From Nocardiopsis sp. TSRI0078 (GTDB taxonomy: Bacteria; Actinomycetota; Actinomycetes; Streptosporangiales; Streptosporangiaceae), in contig NZ_LWLB01000033.1 in assembly GCF_001905145.1 (NCBI RefSeq), positions 62,001-126,000 of the forward strand: 64,000 bases of DNA, read 5' to 3'. This document shows positions 1 through 12,524 of this stretch, one piece after another; within the stretch, counting starts at the first letter, position 1; every line of letters starts with the position of its first letter. Under the pieces are notes generated by a model that had not been told where the DNA came from, did no database searches, and was given only the letters and a program-made list of their open reading frames with translations. Made by a program: the position numbers and the translations under genes.

Positions 1-380
1 GGCTCGGCTTCGCGCTGATCTCCCAGCTGGAGCACCCGATCATGCTGGTCGACGAGGTGCTCGCGGTCGGAGACAAGGCCTTCAAGGGCAAGTGCTACGA
101 GGCCATCGACCGGATGCTGGCCAACAACCGCACGATGGTCCTGGTGTCGCACAACGAGAAGGACCTGCGCCGGTTCTGCAACCGCGGCCTGTACGTCAAG
201 GACGGCGGCCTCGCCCTGGACACCGACATCGCCGCCGCGCTCGCCGCCTACAACGACGACACCAAGGCCGAGATCGCTGAGCGCGAGAAGCGCGACGCGG
301 AGAGGAAGAAGCGGGCGGAGGAGGCCAGGAAGCAGAAGGAGCAGGGCCGGGACGGAACCGGCGGCGGCCAGACCGCCTGA
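1..380 (+). CDS. ABC exporter ATPase, C-terminal part (polysaccharide/teichoic-acid type)
   Basis: This is the 3' end of a gene that begins before the window; the reading frame starts at base 3. The visible part opens with a Walker B segment (IMLVDEVLAVGD) and continues with the switch histidine region (LVSHNEKDLRRFCNRGLYVKDG), both typical of the Wzt/TagH family of ATPases that power export of O-antigens and wall teichoic acids at the inner face of the membrane. The Walker A and signature motifs lie outside the window. The protein ends in a highly charged Lys/Glu/Arg-rich tail (roughly the last 40 residues) in place of a folded carbohydrate-binding domain. The gene lies directly upstream of a co-directional set of glycan/lipid genes, so the exported substrate is probably made by them; that is inference. 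Confidence 0.85.
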   Translation, partial: LGFALISQLEHPIMLVDEVLAVGDKAFKGKCYEAIDRMLANNRTMVLVSHNEKDLRRFCNRGLYVKDGGLALDTDIAAALAAYNDDTKAEIAEREKRDAERKKRAEEARKQKEQGRDGTGGGQTA

Positions 381-557: not shown

Positions 558-1370
558 ATGGTCGACGGCGGCACGGTGACGCGGCTGGCCGCGCGGGTGC
601 TGGAGCGAGGAAACCTCACCCGGGCCGCGGTGACCCGGATCAGCGCCCTGGCGGCGGTCGGCGCCGCGGTCTGGTTCTCCCGGGCCGACACGGTCGGCGG
701 CCTGGCGGGATCGGCGTTCCTGGGCGCCGTCCTGTTCTGCGACGCCGTCCGCGACCGCATGCGCGCCCACCGCCGCGACGCCCTCACCCTGTGGCTCGCG
801 GCGATGCTGTCGAGGCTGCGCGAGTACGCGGTCCACCTCGGGCTGGCGCTCGGCGCCGCGGCCGCCGGGGTCGGCGGCGCGTGGGGATGGGCGGCGGGCG
901 CCCTCATCGCGCTGGCCCTGCGCGACTCGTTCCTGGCGGCCGGATCCGCCCCGGCGGCCCCGGTGCCCGGTCCGGAACCGAGACGGTCCGCCCCCTCCGC
1001 CCAGAGGCGAACTGGCGGCCTTCTGGGTGATCTCACGCCACAACCGCCCCAAGGGTCCCGTGTCAACGATCCCGTGCTGACCTCGCGCCTGTTCGGCACC
1101 ACCGTGGTCACCGCCCCCGGTGCCACGGGGACGCGGTCCGCGGGGGAGCGGGAGAGCAGGACCGAAGGGCGCCTCGAAGACTCCGCGGCGGCCACGTTCG
1201 CGCCGGTCCGCCGCCTCCTCTCCTTCTCCCAGCCCGCACGCTTCCTGACCGTCGCGGTCACCGCCACGCTGTGGGACGCACGCGTCGCCTTCGTCACTCT
1301 CGTCATCGGCTGTGCCGTCGCGGTCACCGCCCGGCTCGTCGACCCCTCCGACCGAGGAGCGTGCCCGTGA
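558..1370 (+). CDS. Membrane protein of unknown function in surface-glycan/lipid cluster
   Basis: This 270-residue protein starts at an ATG preceded by GGGGAGGG. It has an Arg-rich N-terminus, two hydrophobic stretches between residues about 25 and 70, a further hydrophobic Ala/Gly-rich segment near 95–130, and another at the C-terminal end after a low-complexity Pro/Arg linker. I recognise no catalytic motif. It ends in a GTGA overlap with the next gene, so the two are almost certainly translated together. Its place between an exporter ATPase and the cytidylyltransferase/G1P-dehydrogenase/CDP-alcohol-transferase trio suggests a membrane accessory role there; this is inference. It may correspond to half of a larger membrane protein that is a single gene in relatives. 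Confidence 0.6.
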   Translation: MVDGGTVTRLAARVLERGNLTRAAVTRISALAAVGAAVWFSRADTVGGLAGSAFLGAVLFCDAVRDRMRAHRRDALTLWLAAMLSRLREYAVHLGLALGAAAAGVGGAWGWAAGALIALALRDSFLAAGSAPAAPVPGPEPRRSAPSAQRRTGGLLGDLTPQPPQGSRVNDPVLTSRLFGTTVVTAPGATGTRSAGERESRTEGRLEDSAAATFAPVRRLLSFSQPARFLTVAVTATLWDARVAFVTLVIGCAVAVTARLVDPSDRGACP

Positions 1371-2092
1371 ACGCGGGAGGCCGGGAGCACCGAGGGGAGC
1401 GGCTCGACCCCGTCCGCCCCGACCTGCGGGTCCTCCGTGACGACAGCCGCCTCTCCCGCCTGCTCGGCAGGATCGCCCCGGGGGCCGTGCCGCCCCTGCC
1501 CTCCGCGCTCACCGGCGCCCTGATCGTCGGGACGCTCCTCGCGGCGGAGCACGGACGGCTGACAGGCATTACCCTGTTCGCACCGGTCGCCGCCCTGCTA
1601 CTGTCCGGACTGGCCTCGGGCCACCCCCACGACGGACGGTTCGACCGGCTCGTGCCACCAGTCCTGCGCCTCACCGAGTACGGGTACCTGGCGGTCCTGG
1701 GCCTGGCGTCCGGCGTACCGGGTCCCCTGGTGTTCGTACTCTTGATGGTGGTCGCCTGCCACCACCGCGACGACGTGGCACGTCCCGCGGCCGGAACGGT
1801 CCGGCCGCAGGGAGTGCGCACGGCGGCTCTGGGCTGGGACGGCCGCATGCTCGTCACGGCGGTCGGGGGTGCGTTTCACGCGCTCACCCCGGTCTACGGC
1901 ATACTCGCCGGATACCTGGCGGTGCTGCTCGTCCGCGAGGCCGCGCGTACCTGGAGTGCGACACCCGTGGCCGACGTGCGCGCCGACGCCGCCCCCGGTG
2001 ACGGCGGCACCGGCCGGGCGGGTTCCGCGGCCACCAGGACAGGCCACGCAGACGGAGGCCGACCGGCCACCGGAACGAACGGGGAGGCGTGA
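1367..2092 (+). CDS. Membrane protein, DUF5941-like
   Basis: I chose the GTG at 1367, which overlaps the upstream stop (GTGA), over in-frame codons further upstream that lie inside the preceding gene. The product is about 241 residues. Two or three hydrophobic segments (SALTGALIVGTLLAAEH; TLFAPVAALLLSGLAS; PGPLVFVLLMVVAC) are followed by the motif LGWDGRMLV and a last membrane segment. That arrangement resembles the actinobacterial DUF5941 domain, which is found with CDP-alcohol phosphatidyltransferases. The C-terminal 45 residues are a disordered Gly/Thr/Asp tail. It sits directly upstream of the NTP transferase. The family assignment is from memory of the motif and is tentative; the biochemical role is unknown. 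Confidence 0.6.
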   Translation: MNAGGREHRGERLDPVRPDLRVLRDDSRLSRLLGRIAPGAVPPLPSALTGALIVGTLLAAEHGRLTGITLFAPVAALLLSGLASGHPHDGRFDRLVPPVLRLTEYGYLAVLGLASGVPGPLVFVLLMVVACHHRDDVARPAAGTVRPQGVRTAALGWDGRMLVTAVGGAFHALTPVYGILAGYLAVLLVREAARTWSATPVADVRADAAPGDGGTGRAGSAATRTGHADGGRPATGTNGEA

Positions 2093-2125: not shown

Positions 2126-2857
2126 ATGCTCGGAATGGTTCTCGCCGCAGGCGCGGGGCGCCGTCTACGCCCCTACACCGACACCCTTCCCAAGGCCCTG
2201 GTGCCCGTCGACGGTGAGACGACCATCATGGACATCTCACTGCGCAACCTGGCGGCGGCCGGGCTCACCGACGTCGTCGTCGTGGTCGGCTACCGCGCCG
2301 AGGCGGTCGAGGCGCGCAAGGAGACCCTGGAGGAGCGCCACGGCGTCAGGCTCACCCTCAGTTACAACGACAAGGCGGAGGAGTGGAACAACGCCTACTC
2401 CCTGTGGACCGCGCGTGAGTTCTTCTCCGAGGGCGTCCTCCTCGTCAACGGTGACACGGTCCACCCTGTGAGCGTCGAGGAAACGCTACTCGCCGCACGG
2501 GGTCCGGAACTCCTCCTCGCGGTGGACAACGTGAAAAGCCTCGCCGAAGAGGAGATGAAGGTGACCCTGGACGAGGAGGGACACCTGCGCGACATCACCA
2601 AGCTCATGGACCCGGCCACCGCCGCGGGCGAGTACATCGGCGCCACCCTCATCGAGGGCTCCCTGGACGCCCGTCTCGCCGACGCCCTCAAGGCCACCTG
2701 GGAGCGCGACCCGCAGCTGTACTACGAGGACGGCTACCAGGAGCTGGTCAACCGCGGGGAGAAGGTCGCCGTGGCGCCCATCGGCAAGGTGGACTGGGTC
2801 GAGGTCGACGACCACGACGACCTGGCCAAGGCGAGGGAGATCGCGTGCCGCTACTAG
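2126..2857 (+). CDS. NTP transferase, phosphocholine cytidylyltransferase-like
   Basis: This 243-residue protein is a nucleotidyltransferase with a Rossmann-like fold. The N-terminal signature GAGRRLRPYTDTLPKAL (residues 9–25) binds the NTP and contains the conserved Arg and Lys. NNAYSLW (88–94) matches the LicC-type phosphocholine cytidylyltransferase signature, and NGD (108–110) supplies the metal-binding Asp. A strong ribosome binding site (TAAGGAGG, 2107–2114) precedes the ATG. The next gene starts inside its 3' end. The enzyme should activate a phosphorylated small alcohol as its CDP derivative. Next to a glycerol-1-phosphate-dehydrogenase homologue the substrate could be sn-glycerol-1-phosphate or another polyol phosphate rather than phosphocholine; that is inference. 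Confidence 0.8.
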   Translation: MLGMVLAAGAGRRLRPYTDTLPKALVPVDGETTIMDISLRNLAAAGLTDVVVVVGYRAEAVEARKETLEERHGVRLTLSYNDKAEEWNNAYSLWTAREFFSEGVLLVNGDTVHPVSVEETLLAARGPELLLAVDNVKSLAEEEMKVTLDEEGHLRDITKLMDPATAAGEYIGATLIEGSLDARLADALKATWERDPQLYYEDGYQELVNRGEKVAVAPIGKVDWVEVDDHDDLAKAREIACRY

Positions 2858-3912
2858 CCCGTATGCTCCCCTCCCCCCTGGCGATCGACGTCCGGCGGGG
2901 AGCCGTCGCCTCCCTGGGGACGCTGCTCGCCGACCGGAGGATCGCCACCGAGGGCCGCGTCGCCGTCGCCGTGGGCCCCGGCCAGGGCGAGCAGATCGCC
3001 GCGGACCTGGACCTGCCCAACTGCGAGGTCTTCCAGGTGGGCGAGGGCACCGTCGACGCCGCCACCGAGCTGGGCAAGAAGCTCCGCTCGGGTGCCTACG
3101 AGGCGGTCGCCGGGATCGGCGGCGGCAAGACCATCGACGTCACCAAGTTCGCCGCGACCATGGCGGGCATCCCCATGGTGGCCGTGGCCACGAACCTGGC
3201 GCACGACGGTATCGCCTCCCCCGTCAGCTCGCTGGAGCACGAGGGCGGCAAGCCGTCCATCGGCGTGACCATGCCCATCGCCGTGGTCATCGACGTGGAC
3301 TACGTCCGGGCGGCCCCCTCCCACCTGGTCCGGTCCGGCATCGGTGACGTGGTCAGCAACATCTCCGCCATCGAGGACTGGGAACTGGCGGGCCGGGTGA
3401 ACGGCGAGCCGGTGGACGGCATGGCCGTCACCTTCGCCAGGGTCGCGGCCGAGGCCGTGCTGCACCGGCCCGACTCGGTGGACTCCGACGCCTTCCTCAC
3501 GGTGCTCGCCGAGGGGCTGGTGCTCTCGGGCATGGCCATGTCGGTGGCCGGCTCCAGCCGTCCGGCCAGCGGCGCGTGCCACGAGATCCTGCACGCGATC
3601 ACCCATCTCCACCCGGGCACCAGCAACCACGGTGAACTCGCCGGGCTGGGTGCGCTGTACGCGTCCTTCCTGCGGGTGCGGCACATGGACTGGCCGAAGG
3701 CGCGGATGGGCGAGATCCGCGACTGCCTGGTCCGCCACGAGCTGCCCGTGGTGCCCTCCGACGTCGGACTCGACGAGGCGGAGTTCGCACGGGCGGTGGC
3801 CCACGCGCCGGGCACCCGTCCGGGCCGGTTCACCATCCTGGAACACCTGAACCTCTCCGAGGACGAGATCGGACGGAGCGTCAAGGACTATGTCGAAGCC
3901 GTCGGTCGCTGA
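2845..3912 (+). CDS. sn-glycerol-1-phosphate dehydrogenase family protein (AraM/EgsA-like)
   Basis: This 355-residue protein belongs to the iron-containing alcohol dehydrogenase superfamily. GGGKTID (92–98) is the NAD(P)-binding loop. Asp121 in ATNLAHDGIASP, His246 in SGACHE and His262 in SNHGE sit where the metal ligands lie in glycerol-1-phosphate dehydrogenases, and GIGDVVSN...AIEDWELA (165–182) is a hallmark of that group. The family reduces dihydroxyacetone phosphate to sn-glycerol-1-phosphate, the archaeal-type enantiomer. The GTG start at 2845 overlaps the previous gene by 13 bp; an ATG at 2863 is an alternative. It is followed at once by a CDP-alcohol phosphatidyltransferase. The actual substrate in this organism cannot be read from sequence. 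Confidence 0.82.
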   Translation: MPLLARMLPSPLAIDVRRGAVASLGTLLADRRIATEGRVAVAVGPGQGEQIAADLDLPNCEVFQVGEGTVDAATELGKKLRSGAYEAVAGIGGGKTIDVTKFAATMAGIPMVAVATNLAHDGIASPVSSLEHEGGKPSIGVTMPIAVVIDVDYVRAAPSHLVRSGIGDVVSNISAIEDWELAGRVNGEPVDGMAVTFARVAAEAVLHRPDSVDSDAFLTVLAEGLVLSGMAMSVAGSSRPASGACHEILHAITHLHPGTSNHGELAGLGALYASFLRVRHMDWPKARMGEIRDCLVRHELPVVPSDVGLDEAEFARAVAHAPGTRPGRFTILEHLNLSEDEIGRSVKDYVEAVGR

Positions 3913-4660
3913 GGTCCGGGCGGGCGGACAGCCCGTCGGCATCAAGGAGAGAACGAACGAGGAGCACTGGGCGGGCCGCCTCTACATGCGCGACCTCTCC
4001 CCGTACCTGACCACGCTCTTCGTCCGGCTCGGCGTCCCCCCCAACCCGATCACCTACCTGATGATGGTGTTCGGGGTGCTGGCCGGGGTGGTGGTCGCCT
4101 TCGGCGGCCTGTGGTCGGCGATCGTCGCGGCGCTGTTCGTGCAGGTGTACCTGCTGCTGGACTGCTCCGACGGCGAGGTGGCCCGCTATACCGGCCGTAC
4201 CAGCGTCGCCGGGATCTACCTGGACCGGATCGGCCACTACGTGTCCGAGATCGCGCTCCTGATCGGGTTGGGCGTGCGCGCCCAGGGCGAGTGGGAGGCG
4301 GGCGGCTGGGTGGTCCTGGGTATGGCCGCCGCGATCGGTGTCGCGCTGATCAAGGCCGAGACCGACAACGTCGTGGTGGCACGCGCCAAGGCGGGCCTGC
4401 CGGAGAAGGTCTCGGACGAGGCGATGCGTCCGCGCTCGTCCGGTCTGAGCCTGGCCCGCCGCGCGGCCTCGGCGCTCAAGGTGCACCGCCTCATCCAGGC
4501 GGTGGAGCTGTCCCTGGTCGTCGTGGTGGCGGCCGTGGTGGACGCCCTCCTCGGCGACCTGACGGCCACCCGGGTCCTCGTGGCGGCGTGCGCCGCGGTG
4601 GGGGTGCTGATGAGCTTCGCGCACTTCGTGAGCGTGCTCGCCTCGCGGCGCCTCGAGTAG
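3890..4660 (+). CDS. CDP-alcohol phosphatidyltransferase family protein
   Basis: This is a 256-residue integral membrane enzyme with several transmembrane helices (about 52–90, 115–150, 200–250). The CDP-OH-P signature D-x2-DG-x2-AR-x8-G-x3-D-x3-D is present from Asp91: Asp91, Asp94-Gly95, Ala98-Arg99, Gly108 and Asp112. The last position, normally the catalytic-base Asp, is His116 (LDRIGH). The family moves a phospho-alcohol from a CDP-linked donor to a second alcohol in the membrane. The start overlaps the upstream gene by 23 bp, so the three enzymes from 2126 to 4660 form one translational block. A hairpin followed by a T-rich stretch comes after it. The His substitution may mark a subfamily or a changed mechanism. 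Confidence 0.85.
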   Translation: MSKPSVAEVRAGGQPVGIKERTNEEHWAGRLYMRDLSPYLTTLFVRLGVPPNPITYLMMVFGVLAGVVVAFGGLWSAIVAALFVQVYLLLDCSDGEVARYTGRTSVAGIYLDRIGHYVSEIALLIGLGVRAQGEWEAGGWVVLGMAAAIGVALIKAETDNVVVARAKAGLPEKVSDEAMRPRSSGLSLARRAASALKVHRLIQAVELSLVVVVAAVVDALLGDLTATRVLVAACAAVGVLMSFAHFVSVLASRRLE

Positions 4661-4707
4661 TTCGCCGGGGACACGGGCAACGCGCCAGTGACGATGACGC
4701 CATGTAC

Positions 4708-4739
4708 GGGGCTGTGCAGGTTACCCTGTTCACAGCCCC
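4708..4739 (+). terminator. Probable intrinsic terminator after the CDP-alcohol transferase
   Basis: A 9-bp perfect stem (GGGGCTGTG/CACAGCCCC) has a nested 4-bp stem (CAGG/CCTG) in its loop. It is followed by a T-rich stretch (CTTTCCTTTATCCTTTCG) that is unusual in this GC-rich sequence. It separates the trio at 2126–4660 from the glycosyltransferase at 4836, which may therefore have its own promoter. Confidence 0.6.
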
Positions 4740-4835
4740 GTCTACCTTTCCTTTATCCTTTCGTTAGTCTGTTCCTGCGAGCGTTGGCATGTGTCAACCT
4801 TCCAGCAACATGTCGTCCACTGAACGGTCGCAAGC

Positions 4836-5822
4836 ATGGCCACACCCGTGACTCCGTCCTCGTCTGGCTCCGGAAACCCCGACGCCGAGGTCTCTTTCCG
4901 AGTGCCCGGCGACGAGCACTCCCGAGCACCCCGAGCCGAACGGAGCCGCCCCCAGGTGTCCGCGCCCACCCTGTCCTGCGTCCTGCTCACGATGGGCAAC
5001 CGTCCCGCCGAACTGCGCCGTGCGATCACCAGCGTGTTCGAGCAGGAGGACGTGGACGTCGAGGTCGTCGTGGTCGGCAACGGCGCGGACCTGCCGGAGC
5101 TGCCCGAGGGCGTCACGCGGGTGCGCCTGCCGGAGAACGTGGGCATCCCCGAGGGACGCAACCACGGGGTGCGCGCGACCAAGGGCGACATCATCCTGTT
5201 CCTGGACGACGACGGCTGGTACCGCTCCACCGACCTGGCCCGCCACGTGCGCGAGCGCTTCGCCGCCGACCCGTCGCTGGGCGCCCTGTCCTTCCGGATC
5301 GCCGACCCCGACGGCGGTCCCGACCAGCGCCGCCACGTGCCGCGCCTGCGTGTGGGGGACCCGCGCAGGTCGAGCGCGGTGACCACGTTCCTGGGCGGGG
5401 CGTGCGCGATCCGCCGTACCGCCTTCGAGGCGGGGGGCGGCCTGCCCGGCGACTTCTTCTACGCCCACGAGGAGACCGACCTCGCCTGGCGGATCATGGA
5501 CGCGGGATACGGAATCGAGTACGACGCCGAAGCGGTGATGTACCACCCCGCGGTGGCGCCGACCCGGCACGAGAACTTCTACCGGCTCAACGCCCGCAAC
5601 CGGGTGTGGCTGGCCCGGCGCAACCTGCCCTGGCTCCTCGCCCTGGTCTACCTGGTGACCTGGATGGGGCTGACCGTGTTGCGCGAGCGGAACCGGACCG
5701 CCCTGCGCTCCTGGTTCGCGGGCTTTCGCGAGGGCTGGCGTGAGAACGCCGGTCCGCGCACCCCGATCAGCTGGTCGACCGCCTGGCGGATGGCCCGCGC
5801 CGGACGCCCTCCGATCATCTGA
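4836..5822 (+). CDS. Glycosyltransferase family 2 (membrane-associated)
   Basis: This 328-residue protein has about 45 disordered residues, then a GT-A fold. LSCVLLTMGNRPAELRRAI (47–65) is the nucleotide-sugar binding start, DDDG (124–127) the DXD-type metal site, and HEETDLAWR (near 214) the acceptor-side ED motif, as in rhamnosyl- and galactosyl-transferases of surface polymers. A hydrophobic segment near the C-terminus (WLLALVYLVTWMGLTVL) probably anchors it to the membrane. It ends immediately before a perfect 22-bp terminator, so it closes the cluster. The donor sugar cannot be predicted. Confidence 0.85.
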   Translation: MATPVTPSSSGSGNPDAEVSFRVPGDEHSRAPRAERSRPQVSAPTLSCVLLTMGNRPAELRRAITSVFEQEDVDVEVVVVGNGADLPELPEGVTRVRLPENVGIPEGRNHGVRATKGDIILFLDDDGWYRSTDLARHVRERFAADPSLGALSFRIADPDGGPDQRRHVPRLRVGDPRRSSAVTTFLGGACAIRRTAFEAGGGLPGDFFYAHEETDLAWRIMDAGYGIEYDAEAVMYHPAVAPTRHENFYRLNARNRVWLARRNLPWLLALVYLVTWMGLTVLRERNRTALRSWFAGFREGWRENAGPRTPISWSTAWRMARAGRPPII

Positions 5823-6744: not shown

Positions 6745-7923
6745 GTGAACAGATCCGAGGCCGTAGCGCGGGCTCTGCGCGGTGCCGCATCCCACGAGCT
6801 GCTGGCGGTTCTGCGCGGGGCGCTCGCGGAGAACTACGGGGCGGTGTCCGCCGAACTCTTCCTCGCCGACTATGGGCTCAAGGTACTGTGCCATGTCTCC
6901 GAGCGGCCCGTGGTGTGCGCCGAGGAGCTCTCCGTGTTCAACAGTGTCGTGGGAAGGGTCTTCGGCGCCCAGGAGGGCTTCCTGGAGGAGGACCCCGAAT
7001 CCGCCGTCACGGCGGTCCACCTCCCGGTGAGCGCGCGCGGTGACCGTTTGGGCGTCCTCACCGTCGGGCTGAAGGCGGACGACGCCCCCGAGGAGATGCT
7101 CGACGACCTGGCGCACGTCGCCAACGCCCTCGGGCACGAGATCCTCGTGGCCGAGCGCGACACCGACATCTACCGGACGGTCCGCCGCAGGGACCGCCTC
7201 ACCCTGGCCGCCGAGATCCAGTGGGACCTGCTTCCCGGACGCGCCTACGAATGCCCCGAGTACAGTCTCGGCGCCCAGCTCGAACCCGCCTACGCGGTAC
7301 GCGGCGACAACTTCGACTGGTCCGCGGACCCGGACCGGCTCAATCTCAGCATCACCAACGGCATGGGGGCGGGCATCGAGGCCTCGCTTCTGTCCAGCCT
7401 CGCGGTCAACGCCCTGCGCAACGCGCGCCGCGGAGGACTGCCGATCGCCGACCAGGTCGCCCTCGCCGACAAGGCCGTCTACGCTCAGCACCGGGGCGAG
7501 CGCTACCTGGAAGTCCTCTCCCTCGGCTTCGACCTCGACACGGGCGAGGTGGAGGTGGTCGACGCCGGCTCGCCCCGCCTCTACGTCCTGCGGGGCGACC
7601 AGGTGAACCAGGCCCCCTTCGAGGCGCAGCTCCCCCTGGGAATGGCCGAGGACACGGTGTACACCGCGCAGAGCTTCCGCGTCGAACCCGGGGACCGGCT
7701 GGTCTTCGTCAGCGACGGGGTGTTCGACGCCCGGGGCGGTGCGAAGGAGGCCTTCGGCGACAGGGCGCTGTCCCGGGCCGTCCTGGCCACCAGGCTGCTG
7801 CCCGCCGTCTCCGTTCCCCAGGAGGTCCTGCGGCACCTGTCCACGTACCAGGGCGGGCAGGAAGCGACCGACGACGCACTCGTGGTCTGCCTCGACTGGA
7901 GGGGGAGGCAGACCCGGGAGTAG
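6745..7923 (+). CDS. GAF-like/SpoIIE (PP2C) domain protein with altered metal site
   Basis: This 392-residue protein starts at GTG 6745. Residues about 10–140 look like a GAF-type sensor. Residues about 155–385 are a SpoIIE/PP2C fold: LAAEIQWDLLPG (linker helix), GDNFDW near 187, NGMGAGIEASLLSSLAVNALRNARRGG near 206, FVSDGVFDARGG and TDDALVVCLDW at the end. In active members the second motif reads D-x-MGHG. Here the Asp is Asn and the His is Ala, while the other acidic residues remain. The domain may be weak, metal-altered or a sensor. It precedes the Rsb operon but is separated from it by two hairpins. Confidence 0.8.
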   Translation: MNRSEAVARALRGAASHELLAVLRGALAENYGAVSAELFLADYGLKVLCHVSERPVVCAEELSVFNSVVGRVFGAQEGFLEEDPESAVTAVHLPVSARGDRLGVLTVGLKADDAPEEMLDDLAHVANALGHEILVAERDTDIYRTVRRRDRLTLAAEIQWDLLPGRAYECPEYSLGAQLEPAYAVRGDNFDWSADPDRLNLSITNGMGAGIEASLLSSLAVNALRNARRGGLPIADQVALADKAVYAQHRGERYLEVLSLGFDLDTGEVEVVDAGSPRLYVLRGDQVNQAPFEAQLPLGMAEDTVYTAQSFRVEPGDRLVFVSDGVFDARGGAKEAFGDRALSRAVLATRLLPAVSVPQEVLRHLSTYQGGQEATDDALVVCLDWRGRQTRE

Positions 7924-7950
7924 GCGGGTGGGGACGATCCCCCACCCGCC
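7923..7950 (+). terminator. Terminator hairpin 1 after the GAF/SpoIIE gene
   Basis: Arms 7923–7933 and 7940–7950 are perfectly complementary (11 bp) with a 6-nt loop. The stem begins within the stop codon. Confidence 0.7.
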
Positions 7951-7961
7951 GCCGCTCCCCA

Positions 7962-7991
7962 CCGGGGCTCCGGGCTTTCCCGGAGCCCCGG
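7962..7991 (+). terminator. Terminator hairpin 2 after the GAF/SpoIIE gene
   Basis: Arms 7962–7974 and 7979–7991 are perfectly complementary (13 bp) with a CTTT loop. With hairpin 1 it isolates the Rsb operon that starts at 8087. Confidence 0.75.
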
Positions 7992-8086
7992 CCGACCACC
8001 GCCGTTCGTCTGGTACATAGTTGTCAGGCGGCAAGCAACGTGTGCGGTGCACTGTTCCGGTGACACCGAGCGACCACGGGAGACGT

Positions 8087-8959
8087 ATGACTGACGGAGC
8101 AACCGGCCGTGCGAGGGCGGGTGCGAAGACCGTGGCGGACCTTCTCAGGCGCCGCGGCGAGCAGATCGCCCAGCGGTGGGCGGACCTTCCCTTCTTCCAG
8201 GCCGTGTTCACGGTCACGCGGGACGAGGCCGTCGAGGCCTGCCACGCGGTCGTCGACTCCCTCTCGGCCGTCGCCGAGAGCGGACGCGTCGACGACCTGG
8301 AGGCCCCCGGCTTCCAGCCCATCCGGGAACAGCTCATCGCGATGACCGCCTCGCGCGCACGGTCAGGCCTGTCCACGGCCCAGGTGGACCGCGAGGTCGG
8401 CGCCCTGCGCGAGGCCGCGCTGGAGCTGTTGGCGGCGGACGCCCCCGAGGAGGCGGGTGAGGCCCGGGTCCAGCTCGTCACGCTGTTCGCGACCCTGCGG
8501 GTCATGGTCGTCGACACCATGCTCCAGGAGAACCAGGAGATCGTCCTCCGACAGCGGCAGCAGCTGCTGGAGATGGCGACCCCGGTGATCAAGCTCTGGG
8601 ACCGCCTCGTCGCGGTGCCACTCATCGGCATGCTCGACAGCGCGCGCAGCCAGGTGGTGATGGAGAACCTCCTGGAGGCCATCGTCGAACACAAGGCCAC
8701 CATCGTCATCCTCGACATCACCGGGGTGTCGACGGTGGACTCGCTCGTCGCGCACCACCTCATGAAGACCGTCGCCTCGGCACGGCTCATGGGCGCCGAG
8801 TGCGTGATCTCCGGCATCCGCCCCGCCATCGCCCAGACCATCGTCCAGCTCGGGCTCGACCTGGGGCCGGTCACCACCCGCGCCAGCCTCGCCGACGCGC
8901 TGGAGTGGGCCCTGGAACGCCGGGAAGGCAGGGATCTGCCCACCCGAGGAAACCCCTGA
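8087..8959 (+). CDS. RsbR-like stressosome STAS protein
   Basis: I took the ATG at 8087 (GGGAGA just upstream) over a TTG at 8021; the product is 290 residues. The N-terminal half is an all-helical RsbRD-type sensor. The C-terminal half is a STAS domain: VILDITGVSTVDSLVAHHLMKTV, then SGIRPAIAQTIVQLGLDL. In Bacillus RsbRA the two phosphorylated threonines lie in these two segments. Here the first position is Ser (VDS) and the second Thr (AQT) is conserved. In known stressosomes RsbR and RsbS form a large complex that holds the kinase RsbT until stress. It is the first gene of a five-gene overlapped operon. Confidence 0.87.
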   Translation: MTDGATGRARAGAKTVADLLRRRGEQIAQRWADLPFFQAVFTVTRDEAVEACHAVVDSLSAVAESGRVDDLEAPGFQPIREQLIAMTASRARSGLSTAQVDREVGALREAALELLAADAPEEAGEARVQLVTLFATLRVMVVDTMLQENQEIVLRQRQQLLEMATPVIKLWDRLVAVPLIGMLDSARSQVVMENLLEAIVEHKATIVILDITGVSTVDSLVAHHLMKTVASARLMGAECVISGIRPAIAQTIVQLGLDLGPVTTRASLADALEWALERREGRDLPTRGNP

Positions 8960-8978
8960 GAGCCGATTGGACAGGTAC

Positions 8979-9374
8979 TTGACCAGCTCTTCCACCATCC
9001 CCGTCCTCGACCTCGGGGGGCTGCTGCTCGTCAGTATCCAGGGCGAGCTCCCCGACGACGCGGCCGTCTCCCTCCAGAAGGACGTCACGGCCGCGGTGGC
9101 GAACACCGGTTCGCGCGGGCTCATCATCGACATCAGCGCGCTCGACATGGTCGACTCCTTCCTCGCTCGTGTCCTCGCCGAGGTCGCGGCGTCCTCGCGC
9201 CTCCTCGCGGCCAGGACGGTACTGGTCGGCATGCGCCCGGCGGTGGCCATCACCCTGGTCGAGCTGGGCCTGAGCCTGCCCGGCATGGACACGGCTCGCA
9301 CGGTCACCGAGGCGGCGGCCAGTTTCGGGGTCACCATCGAACAGACGGACCGGCCGGGACGGGGCACGTCGTGA
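8979..9374 (+). CDS. RsbS-like stressosome scaffold STAS protein
   Basis: This is a single STAS domain of about 131 residues. Its start fits the family (VLDLGGLLLVSIQGEL), and DISALDMVDSFLARVL (51–66) carries Ser60, equivalent to the serine of RsbS that RsbT phosphorylates. I chose the TTG at 8979 because it gives the family's usual N-terminus; another in-frame TTG at 8967 would add four residues, and neither has a clear ribosome binding site. Its stop overlaps the RsbT-like start (GTGA). It should bind the RsbT-like kinase within the stressosome. Confidence 0.87.
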   Translation: MTSSSTIPVLDLGGLLLVSIQGELPDDAAVSLQKDVTAAVANTGSRGLIIDISALDMVDSFLARVLAEVAASSRLLAARTVLVGMRPAVAITLVELGLSLPGMDTARTVTEAAASFGVTIEQTDRPGRGTS

Positions 9375-9811
9375 ACCATGCTGCCCAGGAGTCGATACGT
9401 GTACCCATCCGCAAGGACACGGACCTGACGGTGGTCCGTCAGCAGGTGCGCGCCCTGGCGCAGCGGACCGGTTTCGGCCTGGTCCAGCAGACCAAGCTGG
9501 TGACCGCGGCCAGTGAGCTCGCCCGCAACACGCTCCTGCACGGGGGCGGGGGAGCCGCGGAGATACGCGTCGTCCACGGCCAGGCGGGCGCGGGGCTGTC
9601 CGTGAGCTTCGTCGACTCCGGACCGGGCATCCCGGACGTGGACCTCGCGCTGAGCGACGGCTACTCCACCGCGGGCGGGCTGGGCATGGGGCTGAGCGGC
9701 TCCAAACGCCTGGTGCAGGAGTTCGAGATCGAGAGCGGTCCCGACGGAGGGACGAGGGTCACGGTCACCTCCTGGGCCGATCCGTACTCCGTGGGGCACG
9801 GTGTCCGATGA
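9371..9811 (+). CDS. RsbT-like switch kinase (HATPase_c)
   Basis: This 146-residue protein is a GHKL-fold serine/threonine kinase. ELARNTLLHGGGG is the N box, DSGPGIPD the G1 box, and GGLGMGLSGSKRLV the G2 box. In characterised stressosomes RsbT phosphorylates RsbS and RsbR, leaves the complex, and then activates an RsbU-type phosphatase; such a phosphatase is encoded two genes downstream. It overlaps its neighbours by 4 bp at both ends, so stoichiometry is probably set by coupled translation. Confidence 0.88.
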   Translation: MNHAAQESIRVPIRKDTDLTVVRQQVRALAQRTGFGLVQQTKLVTAASELARNTLLHGGGGAAEIRVVHGQAGAGLSVSFVDSGPGIPDVDLALSDGYSTAGGLGMGLSGSKRLVQEFEIESGPDGGTRVTVTSWADPYSVGHGVR

Positions 9812-10854
9812 CCAGGGTCTGGGAGGCTGAGGTCCGCGACGCCACGCGTGTGCCCGAGGCGGCCCGGATCGCGGGCGAGGCGGCGCGCAGTCTCGGCCTC
9901 GACGAGGCCAGGACGTCCGCCGCCGTCCTCACCGCATCCGAGCTGGCGACCAACATGTGCAGGTACGCCGGAGGAGGCCGCTTCGTGGCCGAGGCGGCCC
10001 ATGAGCCCTGGGGGAGGGCCCGTGCGCTGCAGATGCTCGCGCTGGACCACGGCCCGGGCATCCCCGACGTGCCCCGGGCCATGGAGGACGGCTTCTCCAC
10101 CGCGGACTCCCTGGGCACCGGGCTGGGGGCCTGCGCGCGGGCGGCCGACTTCTTCGAGCTCCAGAGCAGGCCCGGGAGGGGCACGGTCGCCGTGGCCCGG
10201 TTCGCCCGGAGCGAGGACCGCTCCCACTTCGACGCCCGGGCCGCGACCGGCGGGGTGCACGTGCCGCTGAGCGGCCACAAGCGCTCCGGGGACGCCCTGG
10301 CCTTCCGCAGCGGCGCGGGCCGCCGCACGGTCATGCTGGCGGACGGGCTCGGCCACGGAGACGCCGCCGCGGAGGCCTCGAACCTGGCGGCGCGCTTCGT
10401 CCTGCACAGCGGGGGAGAGGCCCCCGAGGTGCTGTTGAGGGGGCTGCACGAGGCGCTGCGCCGCACGAGGGGCGCGGCCGTCGCGCTCGCCGAGATCGAC
10501 GAGCCCAGGCGCCGCCTCACCTTCTGCGGCGTCGGCAACGTCGGAGCCCGCCTGTACCGCGGCGGGCGCTGGGAGACGCTGATCTCCCGGCCCGGGATCG
10601 TGGGGGCCTTCAGCCTGCGCACGCCGCAGCCGGTCCGGTACGAGTGGGCGCCGGGGGACATGCTCGTGTTACACAGTGACGGACTGCCCGGACGGTGGGC
10701 GCCCGAGGGCATCGAACGCCTGCGCGACCGCGACGCGGCGGTCGTCGCCGGAGCGGTGTTCCGGGACTCCGGCAGCGCCGCCCGCCTGGTGCGGGACGAC
10801 ACCAGCATCGCGGTGGTCACGCACACCGTACGACCCGACGGGGAGGGACGATGA
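9808..10854 (+). CDS. Kinase–PP2C fusion (RsbT/anti-sigma-like HATPase + RsbX-like phosphatase)
   Basis: This 348-residue protein fuses two domains. Residues about 1–135 are a GHKL ATPase: SELATNMCRYAGGG, DHGPGIPD, LGTGLGACARAADFF. Residues about 150–345 are a PP2C/SpoIIE fold with metal motifs LADGLGHGDAAAEAS, CGVGNVG, LHSDGLPG and DDTSIAVV, so both look active. RsbX in Bacillus resets the stressosome by dephosphorylating RsbS and RsbR; the fused kinase could act on the same partners. The codon at 10669–10671, within the LHSDG motif, is TTA, a very rare codon in high-GC actinobacteria. Translation could therefore depend on the rare leucyl-tRNA. Confidence 0.83.
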   Translation: MTRVWEAEVRDATRVPEAARIAGEAARSLGLDEARTSAAVLTASELATNMCRYAGGGRFVAEAAHEPWGRARALQMLALDHGPGIPDVPRAMEDGFSTADSLGTGLGACARAADFFELQSRPGRGTVAVARFARSEDRSHFDARAATGGVHVPLSGHKRSGDALAFRSGAGRRTVMLADGLGHGDAAAEASNLAARFVLHSGGEAPEVLLRGLHEALRRTRGAAVALAEIDEPRRRLTFCGVGNVGARLYRGGRWETLISRPGIVGAFSLRTPQPVRYEWAPGDMLVLHSDGLPGRWAPEGIERLRDRDAAVVAGAVFRDSGSAARLVRDDTSIAVVTHTVRPDGEGR

Positions 10855-12524
10855 GGGAACCTTTGCTCGACCTCTCCTGCCACGGCATGGTCGACGTGGC
10901 GCTGGCACGGGTGGCCATGGCACGCGTGCTCGATCCGGCGTGCGTCTCCGACGAGGCGGAGCTGGAGTTCCTCGACAGCGCCTCCTCACGCGTGCTGCGG
11001 GAGGTCGAGGAGGCGGGGGAGGCCGCGCTGGTGGTGGAGCTGGCCGAGGACGGGCTCGCCCTGCGGGCCACGGTCCGCGACGGCTCCGGCGCGAACCTCT
11101 GGTCCTCCACACTCGGTCTCTCCGAGCCCCTGACGGAGGCGGGGGAGGGGGCCGGGGCGCTGAGCCCGGACCCCGAGCTGCTCTCGGCGGAGCTCCTGCG
11201 CACCTCCGGCCGGGCCGGTGCGGTGGCCGCGGTGTCGGGCGAGCGCGCACGTGACCTGGAGTGGCACCAGCACGAGCTGGAGGAGACCAACCTGGGAGTG
11301 CTCGCGCTGCACGCCGAGCTCGCCGAGGCGAGCGACGAGCAGAGGAGGCTCCTGGCGGCCGAGCGGTCGGCCAGGGACGAGGCGGAGGCCTCGCGCAACA
11401 GGCTGACGTTCCTCTCCACGGCCAGCGCCAGGCTGATGACGTCCCTGAACCAGTCGGAGATCTTCTCCCGCCTCCGGGACCTCCTCGTGCCGCGGTACGC
11501 GGACTCGGTCCAGGTGTGGCTCCTCGGGGAGGACGGACGGCTGTGCTCCTCCGACGCCGACGAGGACGATCCGCCGGAGGCGGTGCTCCGGGCCGCGGCC
11601 CGGAAGCGGTCGGCGGACGCCCTGGCGGAGAGGGGGCACCTGGCCCTGCCGCTGCTCACGGGCACCGACCTCCTCGGCGTGATGCTGCTGCGGCGCGAGG
11701 CCGCGGTGGACTCCGACGACGAGGTCGTGCTGGTCGAGTTCTCCCACAGGGTCGCGGTGTCGCTGGACAACGCGCGCCGCTTCGAGCGCGAGCGCGACAC
11801 GGCCGCCGCCCTGCAGCGCGCGATGCTCACCGACATCCCCCGCACCCCGGGAATGGAGCTGACCGCCCGCTACCTTCCGGCCACGCGGGGGATGAACGTG
11901 GGCGGCGACTGGTACGACGTCTTCCCCCTGGGGGACGGCGAGTTCATCGGCGTGGTGGGAGACGTCACCGGGCACGGCATCCACGCGGCGGTGACGATGG
12001 GCCAGCTGCGGACGGCCCTGCGCGCGTACGCCCTGGAGGAGCGGAGCCCGGCCGCGCTGATGGAACGCCTGGACCGGGTCCTGGGCCACCTCGAGCCCGA
12101 CCTGTTCGCGACCGCCGTCATCGTGCGCTTCCGCCCGGGCGACCCGGAGATGGTGATGGCCGGCGCGGGCCACCCGCCGCCGCTGTGGCGGGACGGCGAG
12201 GGCAGGGCCAGGGCGGTGGAGCTCCCGTCCGGCGGAATGCTGGGCCTGCCCGTGGAGCAGAGCTACACCGACCACACCATCGAACTGCCGCCGGGCGCGG
12301 CCCTGCTGCTGTACACCGACGGACTCGTGGAGCGGCGCGGGGAGTCCATCGACGACGGGATCGCCCGGCTGCTGGAGGGCTTCGGCGGTCCGCCCTACTG
12401 GGAGAGCGGCCCCGAGGGCGCGGCGGACGCCCTGCTGGACTCCATGGTCAAGCAGCAGGACTGCGACGACGACGTGTGCCTGCTGGTCCTCCTCGCCGGG
12501 GAGGCGCCGAACCCGGCCGGGTGA
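10851..12524 (+). CDS. RsbU-like SpoIIE phosphatase with coiled coil and GAF
   Basis: The ATG at 10851 overlaps the upstream stop (ATGA), giving 557 residues. Residues about 1–120 resemble a degenerate HATPase-like or RsbU-type N-terminal domain. Residues about 125–190 are a charged coiled coil (LEWHQHELEETN...ERSARDEAEAS), followed by a GAF-like domain. The C-terminal SpoIIE phosphatase has all canonical metal motifs: GGDWYDVFPL, VVGDVTGHGIHAAVTM, AGAGHPPP, LLLYTDGLVERRG and DCDDDVCLLVL. It is the expected output phosphatase of the module and would act on an anti-anti-sigma factor encoded elsewhere. A strong hairpin follows. Confidence 0.87.
   Translation: MREPLLDLSCHGMVDVALARVAMARVLDPACVSDEAELEFLDSASSRVLREVEEAGEAALVVELAEDGLALRATVRDGSGANLWSSTLGLSEPLTEAGEGAGALSPDPELLSAELLRTSGRAGAVAAVSGERARDLEWHQHELEETNLGVLALHAELAEASDEQRRLLAAERSARDEAEASRNRLTFLSTASARLMTSLNQSEIFSRLRDLLVPRYADSVQVWLLGEDGRLCSSDADEDDPPEAVLRAAARKRSADALAERGHLALPLLTGTDLLGVMLLRREAAVDSDDEVVLVEFSHRVAVSLDNARRFERERDTAAALQRAMLTDIPRTPGMELTARYLPATRGMNVGGDWYDVFPLGDGEFIGVVGDVTGHGIHAAVTMGQLRTALRAYALEERSPAALMERLDRVLGHLEPDLFATAVIVRFRPGDPEMVMAGAGHPPPLWRDGEGRARAVELPSGGMLGLPVEQSYTDHTIELPPGAALLLYTDGLVERRGESIDDGIARLLEGFGGPPYWESGPEGAADALLDSMVKQQDCDDDVCLLVLLAGEAPNPAG

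Follow-up and report, generated by a model that had tools for sequence, protein, structure and literature searches.

The sequence analysed here, referred to below as the window, covers 64,000 nucleotides of the 6.1-Mb genome of Nocardiopsis sp. TSRI0078 (positions 62001-126000 of contig NZ_LWLB01000033.1). Close to its start lie genes for a LicC-like nucleotidyltransferase (CT), a glycerol-1-phosphate-dehydrogenase-like protein (DH), a protein with the fold of cytidine diphosphate (CDP)-alcohol phosphotransferases (CDP-APs; this one is called B) and a GT2 glycosyltransferase. CT overlaps DH by 13 bases, and DH overlaps B by 23. An initial annotation of this DNA had described such a trio of overlapping genes beside two membrane proteins, a GT2 and an exporter ATPase, and had proposed that they make sn-glycerol-1-phosphate (G1P), activate it as a CDP derivative and join it to a lipid or polymer. 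The open reading frames (ORFs) and Pfam matches bear out the trio, the GT2 and the ATPase are there, and the two membrane proteins turned out to be a decayed second CDP-AP ('A') and a DUF5941 protein (Table 1).

Table 1. Genes of the locus and its flanks, in window coordinates unless stated otherwise
Feature	Position	Strand	Basis
CT, LicC/inositol-1-phosphate-cytidylyltransferase-like nucleotidyltransferase	2126-2857	+	Pfam, NCBIfam, solved-chain comparison
DH, glycerol-1-phosphate-dehydrogenase-like	2845-3912	+	Pfam, NCBIfam, solved-chain alignment
CDP-AP B, CDP-alcohol phosphotransferase fold, D4 replaced by His116	3890-4660	+	Pfam, motif counts, structure model
GT2 glycosyltransferase, conserved partner of CDP-AP B	4836-5822	+	PF00535, locus comparison
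TagH-type exporter ATPase, 3′ end; gene begins upstream of window	1-380	+	ABC_tran and NCBIfam TagH match
CDP-AP A, decayed, without DxxDGxxAR...GxxxDxxxD motif	558-1370	+	Hidden Markov model of relatives and alignment
DUF5941 membrane protein (PF19365)	1367-2092	+	Pfam; GTG start in GTGA overlap with preceding gene
Exporter permease, upstream of ATPase, outside window	ORF L004 10450-11493		KpsM best match, 56.6 bits (cut-off 300)

Glycerol-1-phosphate dehydrogenases (G1PDHs) convert dihydroxyacetone phosphate to G1P, LicC/IPCT-type enzymes make CDP-alcohols, and CDP-APs consume them. CT scores 52.4 bits against PF00483 (cut-off 21.2) and thus has the nucleotidyltransferase domain. Its closest solved chain is LicC (1jyk, E 4.7e-15), in an alignment that covers CT residues 3-103 only, and the second is 6pd1, which is named nucleotidyl transferase/aminotransferase.

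DH reaches 93.8 bits against PF13685 (gathering score 28), which places it in the Fe-ADH_2/G1PDH-like family; presumably AraM belongs to the same broad family. Its best NCBIfam match is PRK00843, glycerol-1-phosphate dehydrogenase, at 239 bits. Glycerol dehydrogenase reaches 55 bits, and the identification of DH as a plain glycerol dehydrogenase was set aside on this comparison. The closest solved chains are the G1PDH 4rgq/4rfl (E 2e-40), which we take to be from M. jannaschii, then 3ce9, 5fb3 and 9h4x. The alignment revealed a SRP[A/C]SG...H...H...HG stretch common to DH, 4rgq/4rfl and 5fb3, of which the SRPASG..H...H part is shared by 9h4x. The arginine of this SRPxSG stretch is present in the four chains named G1PDH and absent from 3ce9, named glycerol dehydrogenase. 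Across 15 aligned sequences, residues G92-94, S238, R239, P240, H246, H250 and H262 of DH do not vary, and D168 is kept in at least 90% of them. DH therefore has the GGG nucleotide loop, the GxGD and the three histidines around SRPxSG that mark a G1PDH, and its histidine pattern recurs in 4rgq and 5fb3; the assignment of these residues to metal and substrate binding is our assumption.

Among the findings that would tell against its proposal, the initial annotation had listed a lack of co-conservation of the genes; across actinobacteria they proved to be co-conserved. Among 345 genomes of the class, 84 carry both CT and DH, one DH only, one CT only and 259 neither. DH was counted at E <1e-90, which leaves out genome G444 (E 2e-21); the totals are 85 genomes with DH, 85 with CT, 120 with B and 77 with both DH and B. 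By eye, CT adjoins DH in the listed rows, the exception being genome G265, where they stand ~10 kb apart.

Gene order was compared in 80 named loci, which are the top 80 of 589 matches obtained with the B alignment and lean towards close relatives. DH is present in 79 of them, CT in 78 and GT2 in all 80. The same four genes stand in the order CT-DH-B-GT2 in 78 loci (two with one gene split), which argues that the locus is not a product of chance; a chance cluster was set aside on this kept order together with the co-occurrence of CT and DH. TagG and TagH homologues occur together in 29 of these loci, LCP proteins in 43 and GDPD proteins in 43 (at least 30 bits), where loci broken by contig ends score as misses. 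In a wider sample of the phylum, 25 of 198 genomes have DH-like proteins. The regions around 20 of those hits fall into 11 with B, GT2 and DH, ten of which also have CT (L044 lacks it), and nine in which DH is 36-43% identical, B is absent and a weakly CT-like gene (58-123 bits) lies within the region.

CDP-AP B scores 29.8 bits against PF01066 (cut-off 22), and the single solved chain matched by its sequence is AF2299. An AlphaFold model from 41 sequences (pLDDT 84.7, pTM 0.82), used for fold comparison only, is nearest to AF2299 (E 3.5e-5) and the A. fulgidus IPCT-DIPPS (6.3e-4), followed by PIP synthases. With this score and a six-helix fold, B can be counted among the CDP-alcohol phosphotransferases. 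Its nearest named relatives, within the best 80 matches, are Nocardiopsis proteins of 81-96% identity, together with one from a record titled Glycomyces fuscus (96%).

The signature of the family, D1xxD2GxxAR...GxxxD3xxxD4, is incomplete in B. At D4 we found histidine in 84 of 105 copies, alanine in 21 and aspartate in none. These copies score at least 130 bits and come from 91 cluster loci and 14 loci without CT and DH; weak matches with an intact D4 in L158, L159 and L161 (19-30 bits) are other CDP-APs and lie outside the count. The other seven signature residues are kept in 91 of 91 B copies and in 41 of 41 sequences of an alignment of the window with 40 of the 80 named loci. Identical throughout that alignment are P51, N52, T55, D91, D94, G95, A98, R99, G108 and D112. 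Having seven of the eight signature residues, B is filed as a divergent branch rather than a standard CDP-AP, and a protein that lacks the fourth aspartate cannot be taken to perform the ordinary transfer to a lipid hydroxyl. At D3+8, all 105 B copies have an acidic residue (Glu or Asp); 54 of 58 A-like copies have Glu there too, so this feature is not unique to B. No study of the D4-less branch was seen in the literature searched.

Second copies of B, with D4 changed to alanine, were seen in two Streptomyces-like genomes (L156, region 7741-9165, and L157, 8526-9356); no CT, DH or GT2 lies in the stretch examined, which for L157 stops 0.2 kb past the gene. Elsewhere (L158 8378-10855 and L159) another CDP-AP, whose D4 motif is intact, comes after CT and DH; such loci might serve as a natural control for D4.

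The second CDP-AP, A, stands directly upstream of CT in Streptomyces-like and Streptosporangiales loci. In the Streptomyces-like L040 it is fused to DUF5941 (36.1 bits against PF01066, 303.7 against DUF5941). D4 is aspartate in 58 motif-bearing A-like copies, weak matches included. The A proteins of Nocardiopsaceae, 28 ORFs, lack the motif, as do seven other ORFs that best match A: L034 and L036, both of which are the separate DUF5941 part, and L081, L084, L087, L092 and L096. A hidden Markov model of 47 intact A domains nevertheless finds 26 of 26 Nocardiopsaceae copies (E 7e-25 to 1e-12). The window copy lies outside that set and is 53-62% identical to three of its members in an alignment. 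The possibility that this gene encodes an unrelated membrane protein was set aside on these two comparisons, and we regard it as a decayed A. The DUF5941 gene most likely starts at the GTG at 1367, inside the GTGA overlap; the term DUF5941 is absent from the literature searched.

The supply of CDP-glycerol offers a further argument. The window genome encodes, on other contigs, three PF04464 (TagF-like) proteins of ~1200 aa each (359-392 bits), two of them with an N-terminal GT2 domain, so TagF-type enzymes are present. No TagD over the cut-off was found in this genome: the best match, at 40.7 bits against 165.4, is a PfkB-fused protein which we take to be HldE-like. The same holds for four further locus-bearing genomes, which include those of N. 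halotolerans (L056) and N. metallicus (L058) and where the best score is 43.2 bits. Since three TagF-like proteins but no TagD over the cut-off are present, CT is the best candidate for the supplier of CDP-glycerol in Nocardiopsis, as judged from sequence. For N. halotolerans, a glycerol-phosphate teichoic acid is recorded in the available text of PMC6801904.

Of the 345 genomes, 25 encode TagD-like proteins that score 100 bits or more, and no DH genome (of 85) is among them (Fisher p 0.001, with phylogeny ignored and the threshold chosen after the scores had been viewed; the curated cut-off passes 3 of 345). In L148 (genome G402), B (9168-9998), a gene that we take to be GalE-like and a TagD over the cut-off (11151-11603, 204.9 bits) form one run, so that TagD stands one gene from B as if it replaced CT and DH. 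The gene beside TagD was considered as a PF04464 protein; it has no Pfam match and was left uncounted. PcrB/GGGPS had no match in the window genome, and 7 of 14 control genomes matched. IspD is represented by one full-length protein in the neighbourhood of the locus (153.8 bits) and two partial ones (35-38 bits).

Taken together, these results lead us to judge it, on balance, probable that CT and DH make CDP-sn-1-glycerol and that this is built into an exported wall glycopolymer, which is our best explanation of the whole locus. Its best-supported portion is the synthesis and CDP activation of G1P. Here the earlier proposal gains support, at the level of sequence, from the co-occurrence of CT with DH, the lack of PcrB and the lack of a TagD over the cut-off.

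In the pathway that we propose, with every substrate, chirality, acceptor and polymer predicted, DH would convert dihydroxyacetone phosphate to G1P, and CT would combine G1P with cytidine triphosphate to give CDP-sn-1-glycerol. B with the GT2, and probably A and DUF5941, would then place glycerol-1-phosphate on a membrane-bound acceptor, which would be glycosylated, and the TagG/TagH-type transporter would export the product to the wall. Because no TagD was found, CDP-sn-1-glycerol probably also feeds the TagF-like proteins of the genome. The result would be a wall polymer with the stereochemistry of lipoteichoic acid, yet made inside the cell from a cytosolic donor like wall teichoic acid. 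Of the two products initially suggested, the wall glycopolymer is favoured by the exporter, LCP, GDPD and TagF-like context, and it takes the place of a membrane product, given a B without D4.

A bolder version is tentative, and we hold it to be unlikely as a whole. Nocardiopsis and allied actinobacteria would make mirror-image wall teichoic acids from CDP-sn-1-glycerol. The acceptor of B would be already ionised (polyprenyl phosphate), so that D4 is unneeded, giving a polyprenyl-diphosphate-glycerol starter for the GT2 and the TagF-like proteins; or the base would have moved by one helical turn to the acidic D3+8.

Several observations weigh against a CDP-sn-1-glycerol pathway to the wall, and some concern the enzymes themselves. 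CT falls under the cut-off of every NCBIfam family among the 25 of 31 matches listed, and its substrate could be sn-glycerol-3-phosphate or a different polyol or amine phosphate. The score of DH lies below the curated PRK00843 cut-off of 413, so it is filed as G1PDH-like and not as an equivalog. CDP-AP B lacks D4: this residue binds the second metal and is the presumed base according to the available text of PMC6506517, and a D-to-N change there nearly abolished PIP synthase activity according to that of PMC4634129. The loss of D4 is therefore a real puzzle; that B copes by means of an ionised acceptor or a moved base is our own proposal.

Other points concern how the genes are distributed. 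Of the 120 genomes with B, 43 lack DH, and of the 85 with DH, 8 lack B, so the locus has to be seen as two modules. In L098, B and GT2 are present but CT and DH are missing. CT and DH are also missing from L144-L155, which carry a D4-less B, mostly with GT2, in other actinobacterial families; several of these also have an intact A and a TagG/TagH-type exporter. Conversely, CT and DH without B stand beside a TagG/TagH-type exporter (L160, L162) or beside the CDP-APs with an intact motif in L158 and L159. In L160 (4458-8347) a galactofuranosyltransferase-2-like protein (PF19320, PF17994) also lies near CT, DH and the exporter.

The argument from supply is affected as well. The sole full-length IspD could be a TarI. 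Of 16 B-only genomes compared, part of the 43 with B but no DH, four have a TagD-like protein; it is near B in L148 alone, and in the remaining three genomes it lies on a different contig or ~415 kb off. In fifteen Streptomyces-like genomes, each of which has DH, the TagD model finds weak, full-length matches (58.7-68.0 bits), and the absence of TagD is therefore firm on the Nocardiopsis side only. The TagF-like proteins may also draw on a donor other than CDP-glycerol. The major teichoic acid of N. metallicus, which carries the locus, is poly(ribitol phosphate) in the available text of PMC6801904. Beside the cluster of a Nonomuraea (L107 3490-4950) we noted an IspD-like domain fused to a short-chain dehydrogenase, with a CDP-ribitol-type look.

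These points leave room for other explanations. CDP-sn-1-glycerol might be made, with a lipid alcohol (diacylglycerol, a prenol or a glycolipid) as the acceptor to which B adds glycerol-1-phosphate. The product would then be an unusual membrane phospholipid or lipid anchor, and the neighbours would form a separate wall pathway. CDP-APs are mostly lipid enzymes in known cases, the nearest folds of B are AF2299, IPCT-DIPPS and PIP synthases, and hpnC and hpnD follow the cluster in L040. Nevertheless, we consider a lipid product unlikely. The locus has exporter, LCP and GDPD neighbours, some relatives have TagD or PF04464 genes near B or near CT and DH (PF04464 in L144, L155 and L162, 25.8-30.5 bits with a cut-off of 22.1), and with D4 lost a hydroxyl would have to attack without a base. 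Moreover, in the two earlier CDP-AP structures, those of AF2299 and DIPP synthase, a small hydrophilic pocket takes the place of the lipid groove, as described in the available text of PMC4634129. Another reading is an archaeal-type ether lipid fed by DH, as by B. subtilis AraM via PcrB, with the place beside CT incidental. DH does resemble the AraM family, but the PcrB search that succeeded in half of the control genomes failed here and CT accompanies DH in 84 of 85 DH genomes, so this reading is scarcely credible.

It is rather improbable, in our view, that the substrate of CT is sn-glycerol-3-phosphate or some other phospho-alcohol (ribitol phosphate, phosphocholine or a phosphonate), with DH making that substrate from its keto form and an ordinary or different CDP-alcohol as the product. 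The substrate of LicC is phosphocholine, and the scores of CT and DH under the family cut-offs given above would suit such a case. In addition, COG1213-type enzymes take several phospho-acceptors (PMC12275187, available text) and glycerol cytidylyltransferases can accept both enantiomers (PMC8262930, available text). On the other hand, the pattern of DH is that of a G1PDH and not of a glycerol dehydrogenase, and the lock-step of CT and DH is hard to explain if CT used a housekeeping metabolite such as glycerol-3-phosphate. B might also be a pseudoenzyme that scaffolds a complex in which A catalyses, as the loss of D4 in all 105 B copies counted and its retention in the motif-bearing A-like copies would suggest. 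This seems quite doubtful to us: in Nocardiopsaceae the whole motif is gone from A, and one would not expect a pure scaffold to retain the seven signature residues that B keeps.

The proposed CDP-sn-1-glycerol pathway resembles several known systems without coinciding with any. The IPCT-DIPPS or archaeal glycerophosphoinositol route likewise pairs a nucleotidyltransferase with a CDP-AP, it provides the closest solved folds of B (AF2299 and 4mnd), and CT and B each match one half of NCBIfam NF041135. However, they do so at 50 (CT) and 42 (B) bits against a cut-off of 580, and our locus has separate genes, a dedicated DH, a GT2, an exporter and a D4-less B. In support of our interpretation, CDP-glycerol synthesis in A. 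fulgidus lysate prefers the glycerol-1-phosphate enantiomer (PMC8262930, available text). With the TagD/TagF pathway the locus has in common a predicted CDP-glycerol donor, TagG/TagH-type export, a nearby LCP and TagF-like proteins in the genome; it differs in the lack of a TagD over the cut-off, the predicted opposite enantiomer and an integral CDP-AP beside a GT2. The AraM-PcrB pathway of B. subtilis offers a bacterial G1PDH-like enzyme, whereas here PcrB is missing and DH sits with a cytidylyltransferase instead of a prenyltransferase. TarI/TarJ and CpgD, finally, resemble the locus in that a dedicated cytidylyltransferase yields a CDP-polyol type of donor, although the substrates differ. 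TarI/TarJ activation (CDP-ribitol) includes a reductase, TarJ, whose family presumably differs from that of DH. CpgD (CDP-glycerate) is of COG1213 type (PMC12275187, available text).

The initial annotation knew of no characterised pathway with this set of genes. In the literature searched, mostly without subscription papers, the search for a published link between G1P, CDP-glycerol and teichoic acid gave no biochemistry of the locus. The neighbourhood itself is already on record. A Streptomyces synteny survey of 2026 (PMC13118837) lists crtB, tagH, tagG, araM, a CDP-AP, a GT2 and a sugar phosphate nucleotidyltransferase as a teichoic-acid-associated region. This is apparently the same neighbourhood, and the available part of the survey gives annotation and duplication counts only, without stereochemistry, the substrate of CT, the loss of D4 or the link to TagD. 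Its crtB agrees with the hopanoid genes hpnC and hpnD that follow the cluster in L040 (14537-16389, both over NCBIfam cut-offs), a neighbourhood that makes a link between hopanoids and the polymer possible. A placement of the Streptomyces copy at SCO2589-SCO2592 found no support: in the text available, SCO2589 and SCO2590 are glycerophosphotransferases/teichoic acid genes and SCO2591 is an amidase.

As for the rest of the locus, the GT2 scores 62.4 bits against PF00535 (cut-off 23.3). The exporter ATPase reaches 42.7 bits against TagH in NCBIfam, under the cut-off of 320, and because the permease is also under its family cut-off, we use 'TagG/TagH' purely to name the type. Further upstream, outside the window, the permease of this ATPase is accompanied by the IspD-like protein, by a GDPD and by an LCP protein. 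Directly after the locus (6745-12524) comes, from the look of the translations, a series of genes for PP2C phosphatase, STAS and anti-sigma kinase-like proteins, which we take to resemble an RsbR/S/T/U stress module.

Archaeal and bacterial lipids are set apart by the handedness of their glycerol phosphate. In the available text of PMC5974469 and PMC7086022, wall teichoic acid takes glycerol-3-phosphate from CDP-glycerol and lipoteichoic acid takes glycerol-1-phosphate from phosphatidylglycerol, and handedness separates the two polymers in B. subtilis (PMC7086022). CDP-sn-1-glycerol was called likely absent from bacteria in 2021 (PMC8262930, available text). If CT and DH do make it, a large group of actinobacteria would break this rule of handedness, and their wall polymers would be the enantiomer that is not cut by the GlpQ of B. 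subtilis. The D4-less branch of CDP-APs poses a second question, namely how catalysis may proceed without the accepted base.

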